Source: Saprospiraceae bacterium | GTDB taxonomy: Bacteria > Bacteroidota > Bacteroidia > Chitinophagales > Saprospiraceae | Assembly: GCA_027488135.1 (NCBI GenBank) | Contig: JAIYCH010000068.1 | Location: 1-55,013 of the forward strand | DNA: 55,013 nucleotides | Reading direction: 5' to 3' | In this document: piece by piece, positions 49,955 to 55,013 of the stretch | Layout: every line of letters starts with the position of its first letter | Position numbering within the stretch: position 1 is the stretch's first letter | The notes under the pieces: generated by a model | Database searches by the model: none | Told to the model about the DNA's origin: nothing | Seen by the model: the letters and a program-made list of their open reading frames with translations, nothing else | Translations under genes and position numbers: made by a program

Positions 49955-50149
49955 ATGACCGGACACACACCAAGACATACCCTTGCGTCTCACCTTCTTA
50001 AAAATGACCAAATAACGGAAGATCAAATCAGGATTATTCTTGGGCATTCCAATATTTCAACTACTAAGATATATCTGAGGGAAAAACATGGGGATGGTCA
50101 ATCTCACAATATTATGAAGAGATTTCTAGAGACAAATGTAATGAACTGA
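49955..50149 (+). pseudogene. Tyrosine recombinase (integrase), C-terminal fragment
   Basis: HTPRHTLASHLLKND, then IRIILGHSNISTTKIYLREK, contains the HxxRH box and LGHxxxxTTxxY with the catalytic Tyr of XerC/D and phage-type integrases. The rest of the enzyme (upstream Arg, Lys) is missing. It meets the RecG/AlbA-like fragment head to head at about 49950-49955, so this is a recombination scar. Confidence 0.75.
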
Positions 50150-50372: not shown

Positions 50373-51143
50373 ATGGAAGAAAATCAGCCTAATCGGTTCT
50401 CCCCTAAAAAAAAGTGGTATGTGTATTTTATTGATTTTATCATGCTCTTTGTAGCGGTAACTCTTGGTTTTTATGCTGAGAATTTAAGAGATCAGCAAGC
50501 TGAAAAAAACAGAGAAATTTCGTATTTGAAAAATATCCATGAAGACCTGTTAGTGGATATTAATAATTTTGAATATGTCATATCAAGCAACAATAGTAGG
50601 CTGAGTCTTCTTGATTCGCTACATATGGAAATTAACAAAGCAAATCCTGATCTGCCTTCACTGTATTACTACATTCGAAATCTTACCCAGAGAAGTACAT
50701 TTGAAAGTTCCCATTTGGGATTGGACCAGATTAAATCTTCAGGGGGATTTCGTTTAATTCAAAATGCTAAAATAATCGCTGGTATTCAAGATTACGAAGG
50801 CTTATTGAACAGTACTATGAAATTAGAATTAAGCAGAGAACATTCTCTTGAACAAACGCGATTTAAAATAGCTGAGGTCTTTGATGCAGGCACTCTTTAT
50901 CAGATGACAAAAAATCAAAATATGGGAGATCGTAAAATATTGAAATCAAGATTTAAACGTCCTGCCTTTGCAGCTCCTTTTGTTGTAAGGGACCATGAAA
51001 CTTTTAACGAATTGATTAACCTTGTTACTCTTAGCTTAAATATTAATATGTATTTAAATCTTCGATATAATGAATTAATGTCTATTGCAAAAGAATTAGA
51101 TGCTGCAATCATGTCGGAATATGGTAATCAGTTTATTGATTAA
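50373..51143 (+). CDS. Membrane-anchored coiled-coil hypothetical protein
   Basis: 256 residues. A single N-terminal TM helix (WYVYFIDFIMLFVAVTLGFYAENL, ~residues 15-38) is followed by a long helical domain (LRDQQAEKNREISYLKNIHEDLLVDINNFE) and a C-terminal helical part. Proteins of this layout (short cytoplasmic N-terminus, TM, then QxEEKxRE) are common in Bacteroidota and resemble DUF6090-type proteins; function unknown. Single gene. Confidence 0.65.
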   Translation: MEENQPNRFSPKKKWYVYFIDFIMLFVAVTLGFYAENLRDQQAEKNREISYLKNIHEDLLVDINNFEYVISSNNSRLSLLDSLHMEINKANPDLPSLYYYIRNLTQRSTFESSHLGLDQIKSSGGFRLIQNAKIIAGIQDYEGLLNSTMKLELSREHSLEQTRFKIAEVFDAGTLYQMTKNQNMGDRKILKSRFKRPAFAAPFVVRDHETFNELINLVTLSLNINMYLNLRYNELMSIAKELDAAIMSEYGNQFID

Positions 51144-51644
51144 CAACCCACCCAAAAATACATTTGTGGCAGGATTTGTGGCCAATAGGGAACAGGTTAA
51201 TTATTAGATTTAAACCTGTCGCGAAAAAGACGATGCGTCAACGCATCAGCGAGAGGACAGGAAATGAAAGCAACACATAATAATAAACTTCCTACTCAAA
51301 CCAAGGGCGATATGGTTAAACAGTGAAATCCTGAAATCCCTTAAATTCGTGATTCAAACTTGGTTCCACGAAAAATGTCCATTTACCTTCAATCCTTCCA
51401 AAGGTAAAAGACACTTTTTATACCAAAGAAACCGGTCGGAAAAAGACGATGCATTCATGTCCTCTATGAAATTTACCCCTGTAAGCAATTCAAACAGTAG
51501 TGTGTGAAAGTATTACTATAAATCTTTTTTAAAAAAAACATAATATTTTTTTATATTTTTGTTTAAAATTTGGGATTTACAGAGTTCTAAAGTTTGAAAA
51601 TTAGGTGATAAAACCATTTATTCTTAGAAAAACTAGAGGAAGAA
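51144..51644. other. Gene-free stretch with a nested hairpin
   Basis: A structured element at 51215-51261: outer arms CCTGTC / GACAGG and an inner perfect dyad GATGCGT-CA-ACGCATC (51232-51247). The phrase GAAAAAGACGATGC occurs in it and again near 51438-51451. The remainder contains only broken frames (for example QTWFHEKCPFTFNPSK near 51358) and an AT-rich region before the FISUMP gene that must hold its promoter. Confidence 0.45.
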
Positions 51645-54600
51645 ATGATGTACGCGAGAATTATTATGATGGTTTTTTTTCCAATTTTTGCCATTGCTCA
51701 GGCACCGCAGAAAATTAATTTCCAGTCTATTTTGAGGAATAGTTCTGGAGAAGTGGTTGGAAATAGGTCGGTCAGTTTAAAAATAACTATACTATCTGGA
51801 ACGATAAATGGATCATCAGATTACAGTGAAACGCATGCCAAAACAACGGATGCCTCAGGATTAATCAGCATACAAATTGGGATGGGTACCTTAGTATCTG
51901 GAGTATTTAACAGCATTAATTGGGGTAATCTGGCGCATTTCATCAAATTGGAAGCAGATTTCAGTGGGGGAAGCAACTATGTTATATTGGGAACGCAGGA
52001 ACTGATGAGTGTACCGTATGCTTTGTATGCTTCGAAAACGGATACTTCGGTTTTGAATCTGGCAAGTAGATTGGCAACGAAGTTGAATGGCTCGGACACA
52101 ATTTCATTGTCGAATCGAATCAATGCCAATTCCAATTCTGTTTCATCTGATACCAGTTTATTGAATCTGGCATCGAGATTTTCAACGAAGCTGAATAAAT
52201 CTGATACATTCGACATGTTATTCAATTACAAAACAGGATTGAATAATAAGCTGAATTGGATTGATACAACCAAAATGTTGTCAACATATATTAATATAGC
52301 TGATACATCCGAAATGTTATTTAATTACAAAACAGGATTGAATAATAAGCTGAATTGGATTGACACAACCAACATGTTGTCAAAGTATTTGAGAAAAGCG
52401 GACACTGCCTCCTTGTCGAATCGTATTGATGCAAAGTTAACTAAAACGGATACTGCCTCTTTGTCTAATCGAATCGATGGTAAATTAACTAAAACGGACA
52501 CTGCCTCCTTGTCGAATCGGATCGATGATAAGTTAACTAAAACGGACACTGCCTCTTTGTCGAATCGTATTGATGGGAAGTTAACTAAAACGGACACTGC
52601 CTCCTTGTCGAATCGAATTGAAGCGAAACTCAATATATCCGATTTTCCGCAAGGTGCTACTTTGGGAAATACGATGTATTGGAACGGAACAACATGGGTT
52701 AATCTTGCTCCGGGATTACCAGGTCAGGTCATGTCCATGTATTCAACTGGCATTCCCTCTTGGTCAGGTGCAGCCTACCCTAGCCTTACCACCTCATCTG
52801 TATCTTCCATAACATCCACTTTCGCCAATGCAGGGGGTAATATTTCTTCCGATGGTGGCGCATCGGTTTTGGCGCGTGGATTGGTTTATGGTACAGCTAC
52901 GAATCCCACGCTTTCTAATTCTGTATTAATCATTGGTTCTGGGACAGGCAGTTTTTCTGGTTCATTAACCGGACTAACGCCAAATACCACCTATTATATC
53001 CGTGCTTATGCTACCAATAGCTCTGGAACAGGTTATGGCAATGAAGTTATCTTTCAAATTTTACCTGTTGCGGTCCCTACTTTAATCACCACCGATGCGT
53101 CGGGTATTACCCAAACATCGGTAACATCAGGTGGAACTGTCAGCAACGAAGGTGGAGAAACAGTCACTGAAAGAGGGATTGTTTATGGAAACACTGCTAA
53201 TCCAACTACTTCAAATACAAAAATAACCAATGGTAGCGGAACGGGTAGTTTTGGCGTTAACATTACTTCATTGACCCCGAACACAACTTACTATATCCGT
53301 TCTTATGCCATAAACAGTGCTGGAACGGGTTATGGCAATAACATCACTGTCCAGACAACCGTTCCCTCTGTTCCCTCCCTAACTACCCGTGAGCTTTTAA
53401 ATATTACAAATTCTACTGCAACAGGGGGTGGAAGTATCACTAATGATGGGGGTAGCAGTATAACGGCCAAGGGGATTTGTTGGAGTACCTCACCTAATCC
53501 TACTATCTCGGATAGTAAAACCACCGACGGAACGGGAACCACCACGTTCACCAGTTTTATCACCGGACTTTCTGCTTCTGTAACTTACTATGTTCGGTCT
53601 TATGCAACCAATAGCACGGGAACAGGCTACGGTAATCAGCAGACGTTCACTACTAGTTCCACTTCCAATACCTTACCTATTGTGACATCGACCAGTGTGA
53701 CTAGATTAACAACGGTTGAAGCGACCTTTAACGCAGAAGTAAATAGTCAGGGAGGTGGAACAGTCACGGAAAGGGGCGCTGTGTGGAACACGGGTGGAAA
53801 TCCTACAGTGAACAGCAATCGAGTTCCATCAGGTTCAGGAACAGGGGTTTATACTGCAACTATAACTGGATTGAGTTTAAATTCAAATTATTATGTGCGA
53901 GCTTATGCTATCAACAACTTTGGTATCAGTTATGGGGTTGAGATACCTTACACTAATTTACTTGCATTGGCGACTTTGACAACCAATAATGTGATTGCTC
54001 AAAGCTTTACAGCCAGCAGTGGTGGAAACATCACCGATGACGGAGGTTCCACGGTTACTGCAAGAGGGGTTGTTTGGAGTACTTCACAGAACCCCTCTAT
54101 TTCCGATAGCAAAACCACGGATAGTTCAGGCACTGGTTCTTATGTAAGTAATTTCACGGCTTTAAGTCCAGGCACCTTCTATTATGTGCGTGCGTATGCA
54201 ACCAATATCACAGGCACAGCGTATGGAAACCAACAAACCTTTACCGCCATAGCTTTGCCTCCACCAGTAACAGATATAGATGGCAACACCTACAAAACAG
54301 TCCAAATAGGTACCCAGGTATGGATGAGTGAAAATTTGAAAACCTCTCGATACCGAAATGGAGGTTCCATACCTTATGTTGTTGGAAACACTGATTGGCA
54401 AGCACTTACCACGGGTGCATGGAGTAATTATAACCATGACGCCGCCAATGACACAATCTATGGAAAGTTGTACAACTGGGGTACCACGTTAGGCGACACC
54501 CTATGTCCTGCGGGTTGGGGCGTACCCACAGATGCTGAATGGACAACTTTGTCAAGTAATCTTGGGGGAGAAAGCGTGGCAGGGGGTAAGATGAAATCCA

Positions 54601-54815
54601 TTGGCACTGCTTATTGGTTTAGTCCTAATACGGGAGCTACAAATGAAAGTGGTTTTTCCGCTCTCCCAGGTGGTTATCGTCATAATTATGGTAGTTTCTA
54701 CGATATTAGCTACGATGCTTTCTTCTGGAGTGCGACCGAGTACGACTACTCCATCGCCTGGTACCGCAACCTGTACTACACCAATAGCAGTGTGGGCAGG
54801 AACTACTTCAGTTAG
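51645..54815 (+). CDS. Secreted FISUMP-domain protein, probable DGR target (variable protein)
   Basis: 1056 residues. Signal peptide (MVFFPIFAIAQ); an N-terminal beta domain (KINFQSILRNSSGEVV to ELMSVPYALYASK, ~20-125); a coiled stalk of tandem repeats with LSNRID and TDTASL (~126-335); five Fn3-like repeats (~375-870, each with GGxxSDGG, ARGxVW and TYYVRAYATNSxGTGYGN); and a C-terminal FISUMP domain (~875-1056; DIDGNTYKTVQIGTQVWMSENL, YNW, CPAGWGVPTDAEW, GFSALPGGYR, FFWSATE). FISUMP is a C-type-lectin-like fold used as the variable domain in Bacteroidota diversity-generating retroelements. The end is cut by TAG at 54813; without it the frame would close SVGASVRCLRD at 54849-54851. Start: ATG after AGAGGAAGAA. 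An avd-like gene follows. Likely binds ligands on cells or phages. Confidence 0.85.
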   Translation: MMYARIIMMVFFPIFAIAQAPQKINFQSILRNSSGEVVGNRSVSLKITILSGTINGSSDYSETHAKTTDASGLISIQIGMGTLVSGVFNSINWGNLAHFIKLEADFSGGSNYVILGTQELMSVPYALYASKTDTSVLNLASRLATKLNGSDTISLSNRINANSNSVSSDTSLLNLASRFSTKLNKSDTFDMLFNYKTGLNNKLNWIDTTKMLSTYINIADTSEMLFNYKTGLNNKLNWIDTTNMLSKYLRKADTASLSNRIDAKLTKTDTASLSNRIDGKLTKTDTASLSNRIDDKLTKTDTASLSNRIDGKLTKTDTASLSNRIEAKLNISDFPQGATLGNTMYWNGTTWVNLAPGLPGQVMSMYSTGIPSWSGAAYPSLTTSSVSSITSTFANAGGNISSDGGASVLARGLVYGTATNPTLSNSVLIIGSGTGSFSGSLTGLTPNTTYYIRAYATNSSGTGYGNEVIFQILPVAVPTLITTDASGITQTSVTSGGTVSNEGGETVTERGIVYGNTANPTTSNTKITNGSGTGSFGVNITSLTPNTTYYIRSYAINSAGTGYGNNITVQTTVPSVPSLTTRELLNITNSTATGGGSITNDGGSSITAKGICWSTSPNPTISDSKTTDGTGTTTFTSFITGLSASVTYYVRSYATNSTGTGYGNQQTFTTSSTSNTLPIVTSTSVTRLTTVEATFNAEVNSQGGGTVTERGAVWNTGGNPTVNSNRVPSGSGTGVYTATITGLSLNSNYYVRAYAINNFGISYGVEIPYTNLLALATLTTNNVIAQSFTASSGGNITDDGGSTVTARGVVWSTSQNPSISDSKTTDSSGTGSYVSNFTALSPGTFYYVRAYATNITGTAYGNQQTFTAIALPPPVTDIDGNTYKTVQIGTQVWMSENLKTSRYRNGGSIPYVVGNTDWQALTTGAWSNYNHDAANDTIYGKLYNWGTTLGDTLCPAGWGVPTDAEWTTLSSNLGGESVAGGKMKSIGTAYWFSPNTGATNESGFSALPGGYRHNYGSFYDISYDAFFWSATEYDYSIAWYRNLYYTNSSVGRNYFS
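52203..52637 (+). repeat. Coding tandem repeats of the stalk (2 x 99 bp and 5 x 48 bp)
   Basis: Two 99-bp units start at 52203 and 52302 (DMLFNYKTGLNNKLNW). Five 48-bp units follow from 52398 to 52637 (TDTASLSNRIDxKLTK). The heptad-like spacing of Leu, Ile and Leu suggests a trimeric coiled coil, like phage fibres or autotransporter stalks. The units are near identical, so copy number may vary between strains. Confidence 0.85.
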
Positions 54816-54851
54816 TCAGTTGGTGCCTCCGTTCGCTGCCTCAGGGATTGA
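54738..54851 (+). other. Probable DGR variable region (VR) with 3' initiation site
   Basis: From GAG (54738) the codons are TAC GAC TAC TCC ATC, GCC TGG TAC CGC AAC CTG, TAC TAC ACC AAT AGC AGT, GTG GGC AGG AAC TAC, and so on: nearly all variable positions end in C and most are consistent with randomised AAC. The invariant-looking tail GCCTCCGTTCGCTGCCTCAG (54825-54844) is GC-rich, as expected for the initiation of mutagenic homing. TAG at 54813-54815 would be AAG or another A-containing codon in the template. The template is not in the window, so this rests on codon pattern and context. Confidence 0.65.
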
Positions 54852-54908
54852 CTATTTGTCTATTTGACTATTTGTGGGCGAGCAAATGCGGGTGGCTAAA
54901 AGGGGGGT

Positions 54909-54928
54909 TTGGGGGGAATTCCCCCCAA
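54909..54928. other. 20-bp perfect palindrome downstream of the VR
   Basis: TTGGGGGGAATTCCCCCCAA reads the same on both strands and lies 58 bases after the end of the extended target frame. In the phage BPP-1 DGR, a hairpin/cruciform just after the VR promotes retrohoming; this one has the right position but no loop. It could also be a terminator. Confidence 0.6.
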
Positions 54929-54969
54929 TGGGTCATTTTTAGTTTTAAAAGCCTCAAAAATAAATCATT

Positions 54970-55013
54970 ATGGGATTAGCAGAAGAACTACCAGTGTACA
55001 AAAAAAGTTATGA
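54970..55013 (+). CDS. avd: Avd-like accessory variability determinant (start only)
   Basis: The last 44 bases encode MGLAEELPVYKKSY, the typical opening of four-helix-bundle Avd proteins (M-x-I/L-AEELP-I/V-YK), which bind the DGR reverse transcriptase and its template RNA. The gene runs off the window. It follows the VR and palindrome at the usual distance. Only 14 codons are visible, so the call depends on that motif and on the FISUMP/VR context. Confidence 0.7.
   Translation, partial: MGLAEELPVYKKSY

Follow-up and report, generated by a model that had tools for sequence, protein, structure and literature searches.

A probable remote target of a diversity-generating retroelement at a contig edge in a Saprospiraceae genome

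The target gene, its variable repeat and the retroelement core

The window analysed here is the whole 55,013-nt contig JAIYCH010000068.1 (C53) of the Saprospiraceae bacterium assembly GCA_027488135.1, which comprises 156 contigs and 4.2 Mb and is labelled G000 among the seven genomes of its genus (G000–G006). Its right-hand end carries a 1056-aa open reading frame (ORF, 51645..54815), which, judging from the sequence, is very probably a remote target of a cellular diversity-generating retroelement (DGR). The gene, the features within it and the partial avd frame behind it all lie on the + strand. After a signal-peptide-like N-terminus, read by eye, the gene encodes a beta-rich N-terminal domain (51666..51893) that resembles the N-domain of the Bdellovibrio mosaic adhesive trimers (MAT) at a score under the model's curated cut-off, a repetitive stalk-like segment with 48-nt and 99-nt direct repeats (52035..52642), five Fn3-type repeats spaced 291–303 nt apart (52770..54250, with approximate outer bounds set by eye) and a FISUMP (Fib_succ_major) tip domain (54300..54845), which is broken by one TAG. 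A preliminary description of the stretch had proposed a secreted protein with five Fn3 repeats and a C-terminal FISUMP domain, lacking a type IX secretion system (T9SS) tail. This architecture was borne out: five direct copies were found in the ORF in addition to an fn3 domain match, the tip matched PF09603 (E 1.5e-33) and TIGR02145 (E 1.8e-30; 106.9 bits, cut-off 41.65), and the Pfam and NCBIfam lists for the target protein contained no T9SS tail family. TIGR02145 matched all 43 of the 43 aligned tips. Residues 347–463 also matched a phage minor tail protein family, phrog_6977 (7.1e-13), and a phage DNA similarity search of window positions 54000–55013 gave no match.

The run of NNC codons that had been pointed out is present, as NNC/NNT codons. 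The variable repeat (VR) occupies 181 nt at the 3' end of the gene (54669..54849) and is longer than the interval 54738–54851 first assigned to it. When compared with the template repeat (TR) on contig C71 of the same genome, it differed at 23 of 60 adenines and at 4 of 121 other positions (p=1.9e-9), supporting the earlier identification of a DGR target. The 3' end of the VR with the natural TGA (54816..54851) is identical to the TR up to 54849, like an initiation-of-mutagenic-homing (IMH) site. Just before it stands the in-frame TAG (54813..54815), where the TR reads AAG; it ends the protein as assembled 11 residues early, so that the supposed invariant tail SVRCLRD falls outside the ORF. 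Further downstream lie the perfect 20-bp palindrome noticed before (54909..54928), a candidate hairpin or cruciform of the DGR target site, and a non-working 5' stub of avd (54970..55013), which reads MGLAEELPVYKKSY from 54970.

The genome contains a single PF00078 match, at C71:71063-71749(-) (E 1.3e-20), whose product also matched phrog_1423, 'Reverse transcriptase' (6.7e-95). DGR-type reverse transcriptases (RTs) carry the motifs YxDD and [ILV]GxxxSQ; in the C71 sequence, the frame of which is open, we read YVDD and IGNLTSQ, as had been predicted. The TR, with 22 AAY codons among its 60, lies directly upstream of the RT, and upstream of the TR are the last 65 residues of Avd, truncated by the contig end. 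Avd was named from the full gene of the sister genome G005, which matched phrog_3206, 'Avd protein of DGR' (5e-23), and PF22296 (53.8 bits, cut-off 40), and scored 67.5 bits with NF033474, under its cut-off of 80. Full avd genes (114 aa) are present in G005 and G006, where the gene order is short FISUMP target, palindrome, avd, TR and RT. A defence label for the RT was considered: the best PADLOC match was a generic RT model (6.6e-40), and the weaker ones among the best 25 of 66 were mostly defence-type RT models. Because the TR, VRs and Avd fit a DGR, the RT was not assigned to defence.

Variable repeats and palindromes across the genus

When 161 nt of the TR region were searched against the genome, the matches were the TR itself and nine VR-like places (E <= 3.5e-13); ten further matches (E >= 1.1) were taken as chance. 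Adenine bias was significant at p<0.001 in eight of the nine, and the share of mismatches falling at adenines (A-share) was highest, 0.85, in the window VR. Across the seven genus genomes the search gave 62 places at E <= 1e-5, namely three TRs and 59 others (9 in G000, 6 in G001, 9 in G002, 10 in G003, 1 in G004, 4 in G005 and 20 in G006). Of the 58 VRs with at least 150 aligned TR positions, which excludes G005:C184 with 117, 49 were adenine-biased at p<0.01, uncorrected for multiple tests. An RT match was found in four of the seven genomes, this one included, and in 5 of 150 genomes of a family sample, G000 and G002 among them. G001, G003 and G004 have VR-like places without an RT match; their RTs were either lost or lie on contigs outside the data.

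The palindrome follows the same division. Allowing up to two mismatches, it was found in all four RT-bearing genomes and in none of the three RT-less ones, while the reversed palindrome, used as a control, gave no match in the genus genomes. G000 has five such places, of which two represent one piece of DNA in a contig overlap; all four unique copies come after a VR. Non-duplicate copies number 16, and upstream of 14 of them, at a distance of 49–59 nt, stands a VR-end-like motif (up to four mismatches). The other two are G002:C142, truncated by the contig start, and G006:C115, which lacks such a motif nearby. G006 has three imperfect copies, with uncompensated changes. We then compared 33 VRs of the three TR-bearing genomes, each against its own genome's TR. 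The 11 VRs with an intact palindrome had A-shares of 0.59–0.97, versus 0.39–0.69 for the 22 without (Mann-Whitney p=1e-4), and all six VRs with at least 75% of mismatches at adenines have an intact palindrome (Fisher p=4e-4). The sequences 3' of palindrome-free VRs in G000 offer an 8-bp stem with a 4-nt loop, within repeated sequence, at C147a, only AT-rich stems of 6–7 bp at C75b, C121a and C121b, and no hairpin at C147b.

Several observations weigh against the proposed remote target. The evidence comes from assembled sequences, and the assembled window allele carries a stop. The RT received no DGR-specific name from any library searched, its best NCBIfam model being a group II intron RT at 102 bits against a cut-off of 300, and the avd sequence seen in G000 amounts to the C-terminal 65 aa on C71 and the stub beside the target. 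The VR of C75b lacks adenine bias (p=0.18); only C53 (0.85) and C20 (0.84) among the nine VRs reach an A-share of 0.75, the other seven carrying more non-adenine drift, and none of the four G005 VRs reaches that share against its own TR. G001 and G003, without an RT match, still have adenine-biased VRs, which means that the bias can persist after the machinery is gone, or that RT contigs escaped detection. The palindrome statistic ignores kinship, and shared descent from recent copies could yield the same link. As for the display of the protein, MAT-like scores of 27.5–40.7 bits stay below the cut-off of 60, and a Foldseek search of the tip against the PDB returned nothing at E <= 0.001.

Another possibility is that the VRs are leftovers of past rewriting and that the window gene is a decaying paralogue no longer served, which we regard as somewhat unlikely. 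The TAG, the avd stub, the non-adenine drift, the VRs retained by RT-less sisters and RT copies without an adjoining TR in G002 and G006 would all fit such decay. Set against it, the genome has an open RT frame and a TR, the window VR leads the nine in A-share and has its palindrome intact, and the stop itself is a difference at an adenine site. The low A-shares and the drift suggest that several targets may be retired or rewritten rarely.

The RT copies just mentioned (G006:C26, locus L055; G002:C164 and G002:C100, loci L056/L057) match only from residue 13 onwards and are preceded by unrelated sequence; they are probably dead DGR cores. In G005, the template (G005:C304, locus L053) differs near its 3' end, at TR positions 148–153, and the VRs fit the G006 template better (A-share of the local VR 0.64 with its own template, 0.79 with that of G006), as if the G005 template had changed recently. 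On G002:C16 (locus L113), a frame of about 1904 codons spans several VR-like places, and many stretches of this contig are similar to other parts of the window.

The contig joint, the 3' module and the premature stop

The last 119 bp of the window (54895..55013) overlap exactly with the end of contig C150. Read on into C150, the avd frame gains 15 residues and then stops, after 29 codons in total; the Avd-like start noted at the edge is thus truly Avd-derived, but it is a stub and not the beginning of an avd gene. Past the stub, C150 carries a carbonic-anhydrase-like gene (named by eye) and a FISUMP paralogue. In G005, the homologue of window ORF 50373-51143 directly adjoins the carbonic-anhydrase-like gene, with the target absent between them, and in G002 a matching avd stub adjoins that gene. 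From the exact overlap, the gene adjacency in G005 and the stub in G002, we take C53 and C150 to be neighbours and the window target to be remote from its RT. In G006:C115, a matching stub sits upstream, not downstream, of the homologue of ORF 50373-51143.

The preliminary description had expected the TR and RT in the next 2.5 kb or so on the right, and had held that their absence within about 5 kb would count against a DGR. C150 has no TR match (E <= 10), and the RT lies on C71; the local layout therefore fails, whereas a version acting in trans stands. We consider it unlikely that the window gene is nonetheless the resident target of a cassette, followed immediately on the right by a full avd-TR-RT, with the join to C150 belonging to another copy or a strain variant. 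C71 does start in mid-avd, without a target or avd start of its own, the local targets in G005 and G006 have tails that share 0.93 identity with that of the window gene, and the assembly graph may fork where C53 ends. However, the exact overlap leads into C150, where avd is a stub, the G002 and G005 neighbourhoods agree with this join, and the local targets of the two sisters are not Fn3 fibres but short proteins, one of 308 aa and one of 276 aa whose frame runs off the contig start.

The locus lies between two copies of a 39-bp exact direct repeat, the left one at 51144..51182 and the right one on C150 past the target and the stub. Despite this repeat and the target-free arrangement in G005, insertion with target-site duplication was dropped as a firm claim; since the stub also occurs in G002 and G006, G005 may have lost the target. 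The site is thus seen with and without the target, through either gain or loss. Direct repeats flanking other targets include a 26-bp pair at C20 and elsewhere are shorter, repeat-derived or missing. Window positions 49955–50149 encode a C-terminal remnant of a tyrosine recombinase (PF00589), and G003:C98 and G006:C115 have homologous remnants close to the same genes, so that the site looks like an integration hotspot. Short dispersed repeats occur at 51231–51336 and at other loci, and a repeat of the GATGCATGCATC type breaks avd in several sister stubs. The paralogue on C150 (locus L012, 5632-8721) is a 1029-aa FISUMP/Fn3 protein with a MAT-like N-domain, encoded in the orientation opposite to the window target; it was absent from the TR matches in the genome.

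We next compared the 128-nt tails of the targets with the 360 coding nucleotides preceding them, using the window gene as the reference. Tail and upstream identities were 0.91 and 0.51 for C20, 0.93 and 0.47 for each of the G005 and G006 local targets, 0.89 and 0.45 for G006:C26, 0.78 and 0.47 for C89, and 0.71 and 0.61 for C75a. Diverged upstream halves are thus joined to far more similar tails, suggesting that the VR end, the palindrome and the dead avd start spread as one 3' module. The avd stubs also share types of break: the TTCCATAT junction is found at seven places in G005 and G006, with a similar one in G003:C149; another break type is common to G000, G002 and G006; and C20 and C89 share a similar break. 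On the simplest reading, the break preceded the copying of tails that have an identical dead avd start.

The lysine codon at the stop site (AAG in the TR) is unchanged in 39 of the 49 adenine-biased VRs, whereas the 22 AAY codons are kept in 2–37%, a pattern that resembles selection against loss of the lysine. A stop at the codon equivalent to 54813-54815 or at the preceding one is found in two of these 49 VRs, G002:C15 having it at the neighbouring codon; a TAG at the equivalent codon itself occurs in 1 of 58 VRs. In G001:C211, three stops in the frame of the 3' end reflect a frameshift within the VR. Based on the tip model of C20, a short strand and a cysteine that hardly varies are among the 11 residues missing from the window protein. 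With the last conserved residues and this cysteine lost to the TAG, the assembled allele is probably null; since the TAG lies inside the VR, a later round of rewriting could replace it. A function as a built-in off-switch, which we considered, is not claimed, given the single TAG in 58 VRs and the mostly kept lysine codon.

In an assembly this fragmented, the VR or its TAG might stem from an assembly error or from many alleles merged into a mosaic consensus. We consider this improbable, as no other stop interrupts the frame before the TAG, the TR-identical end continues in that frame, the adenine bias is strong, and G002:C15 has a stop one codon away. Ordinary FISUMP paralogues that owe their asparagine-rich ends to descent, without any retroelement, would agree with the 24 FISUMP loci of the genome (from 26 matches), 15 of which lie outside the TR matches, but are contradicted by the adenine-biased differences from an RT-adjacent TR and by the palindrome, and are thus very improbable.

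Display, relation to known systems and significance

The route by which the tip would be displayed had been called unclear, and a sub-threshold match to MAT fibres now offers a lead, though no more. NF053851, the Bdellovibrio MAT N-domain model, matched the N-domain of the window protein alone at 2.1e-10 (40.7 bits) and all six N-domains given to it at E <= 0.01 (best 1.7e-11). At the same threshold it matched 12 places in the genome, none above the cut-off, and none of 14 control genomes. Nine of the 12 places share an ORF with a FISUMP domain, as matched via contig and frame length, and five of these nine ORFs, among them C75b, are VR genes; the VR genes that remain, those of C20 and C89 and two on C121, are short and fall outside the NF053851 set. 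The N-domain is predicted to be beta-rich (predicted local distance difference test, pLDDT, 71.6), and a PDB sequence search with it gave one chance-level match (0.75); the MAT-like N-domain is thus a lead to the display route, not a sign of membership in that family.

The FISUMP tip, as represented by that of C20, was modelled with a pLDDT of 88.8. A PDB sequence search with the FISUMP profile gave no match at E <= 0.1. In the structural comparison with the PDB, the Lcl C-terminal domain ranked first (E 0.19) and the Bd2740 C-terminal domain third (E 1.3), both non-significant. Of three matches to BFVD at E <= 0.001, two are named FISUMP, which places the tip in its family but does not show a lectin fold.

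As a remote target, the window gene would work as follows. The RT encoded on C71, together with Avd, would reverse-transcribe TR RNA, making errors at adenines, and the resulting cDNA would replace the VRs of the window target and of other targets in trans, at target sites marked by the palindrome. The VR end, the palindrome and the dead avd start would spread as one 3' module. The protein would be a secreted fibre anchored by its MAT-like N-domain, with the lectin-like FISUMP tip as a putative binding surface.

The DGR of Bordetella phage BPP-1 has the order mtd-avd-TR-brt. It shares with the present system an RT, a TR, a VR, Avd and a GC-rich inverted repeat 3' of the VR, which in BPP-1 forms a hairpin or cruciform with stems of 7–10 bp and loops of 4 nt, 4–34 bp from the VR (PMC3240598). 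Here, by contrast, the targets are dispersed, the palindrome lies 49–59 nt past the VR end in the 14 of 16 copies described above, the avd beside the window target is dead, and AATT at the centre of the palindrome is at odds with the GRNA loop described for BPP-1 (PMC3240598). Closer in layout is the Treponema denticola DGR, with one core and two to seven remote targets per isolate, whose template has lysine codons, for which stop avoidance does not apply (PMC4891356); it differs from the nine VR-like places here (20 in the sister G006), with FISUMP tips and with a palindrome and avd stub that travel with several targets. In Thiohalocapsa PB-PSB1, trans activity was likewise deduced from VR/TR matches, over 9 loci and 15 targets that spread via duplication and domain shuffling (PMC10907252); those targets are conflict-system sensors served by several RT classes, unlike the secreted-type proteins and the one RT match found here. 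In a set of 21 cyanobacterial genomes, DGRs have 76 remote C-type lectin (CLec) targets, located at the 3' ends of genes, and cruciforms were suggested as an activating feature; the targets are often kinase-linked, unlike here, and the available part of that paper holds no palindrome comparison (PMC7517822).

High VR number alone is not new, since 271 of 948 DGRs in the MetaCSST set have several VRs, some a dozen to hundreds per TR; the many-VR example given there has few A-to-N changes, unlike the present VRs (PMC6642488). MAT fibres also have a signal peptide, a beta-rich N-domain of about 130 aa, a fibre and differing C-terminal tips, and the C-type-lectin tip of Bdellovibrio Bd2740 was compared with Mtd by the authors; in the available part of that paper, the only mention of retroelements is a reference title (PMC10769870). 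The window protein differs from MAT fibres in its N-domain match, which is under the cut-off, and in its Fn3 stalk. A DGR of DiGReF structural group 2 has been reported from Haliscomenobacter, remote targets being mentioned, in the text available, for other hosts and not for this one (PMC3521204), and Fib_succ_major is listed among DGR target domains, with nine proteins (PMC4159848). Remote targets acting in trans, many VRs, hairpins, template lysine codons and FISUMP targets are therefore each known singly. Among the literature matches listed, no title or abstract joined DGRs with MAT fibres or described VRs travelling with an avd stub, and the combination of MAT-like fibre targets, modules of VR, palindrome and avd stub, and a genus-wide palindrome contrast was unmatched there.

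We put forward, as a tentative possibility, that in this Haliscomenobacteraceae lineage one DGR rewrites in trans the lectin-like tips of a set of MAT-like adhesive fibres and of short secreted proteins, with a mobile 3' module pasted behind diverged halves, the palindrome deciding which copies are in play and a change of the template lysine codon to a stop switching alleles off. By its own account, a global metagenome survey of DGRs would miss remote targets, in which the VR lies away from the RT (PMC8144416), whereas the whole-genome search made a fragment at a contig edge part of a dispersed system. The genus, with the palindrome present at some VRs and absent at others, offers a natural test of what makes a live remote target. 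It may also link the variable proteins of DGRs to the tip-varying fibres of predatory bacteria, in line with the structural analogy between Bd2740 and Mtd drawn in the MAT paper (PMC10769870).

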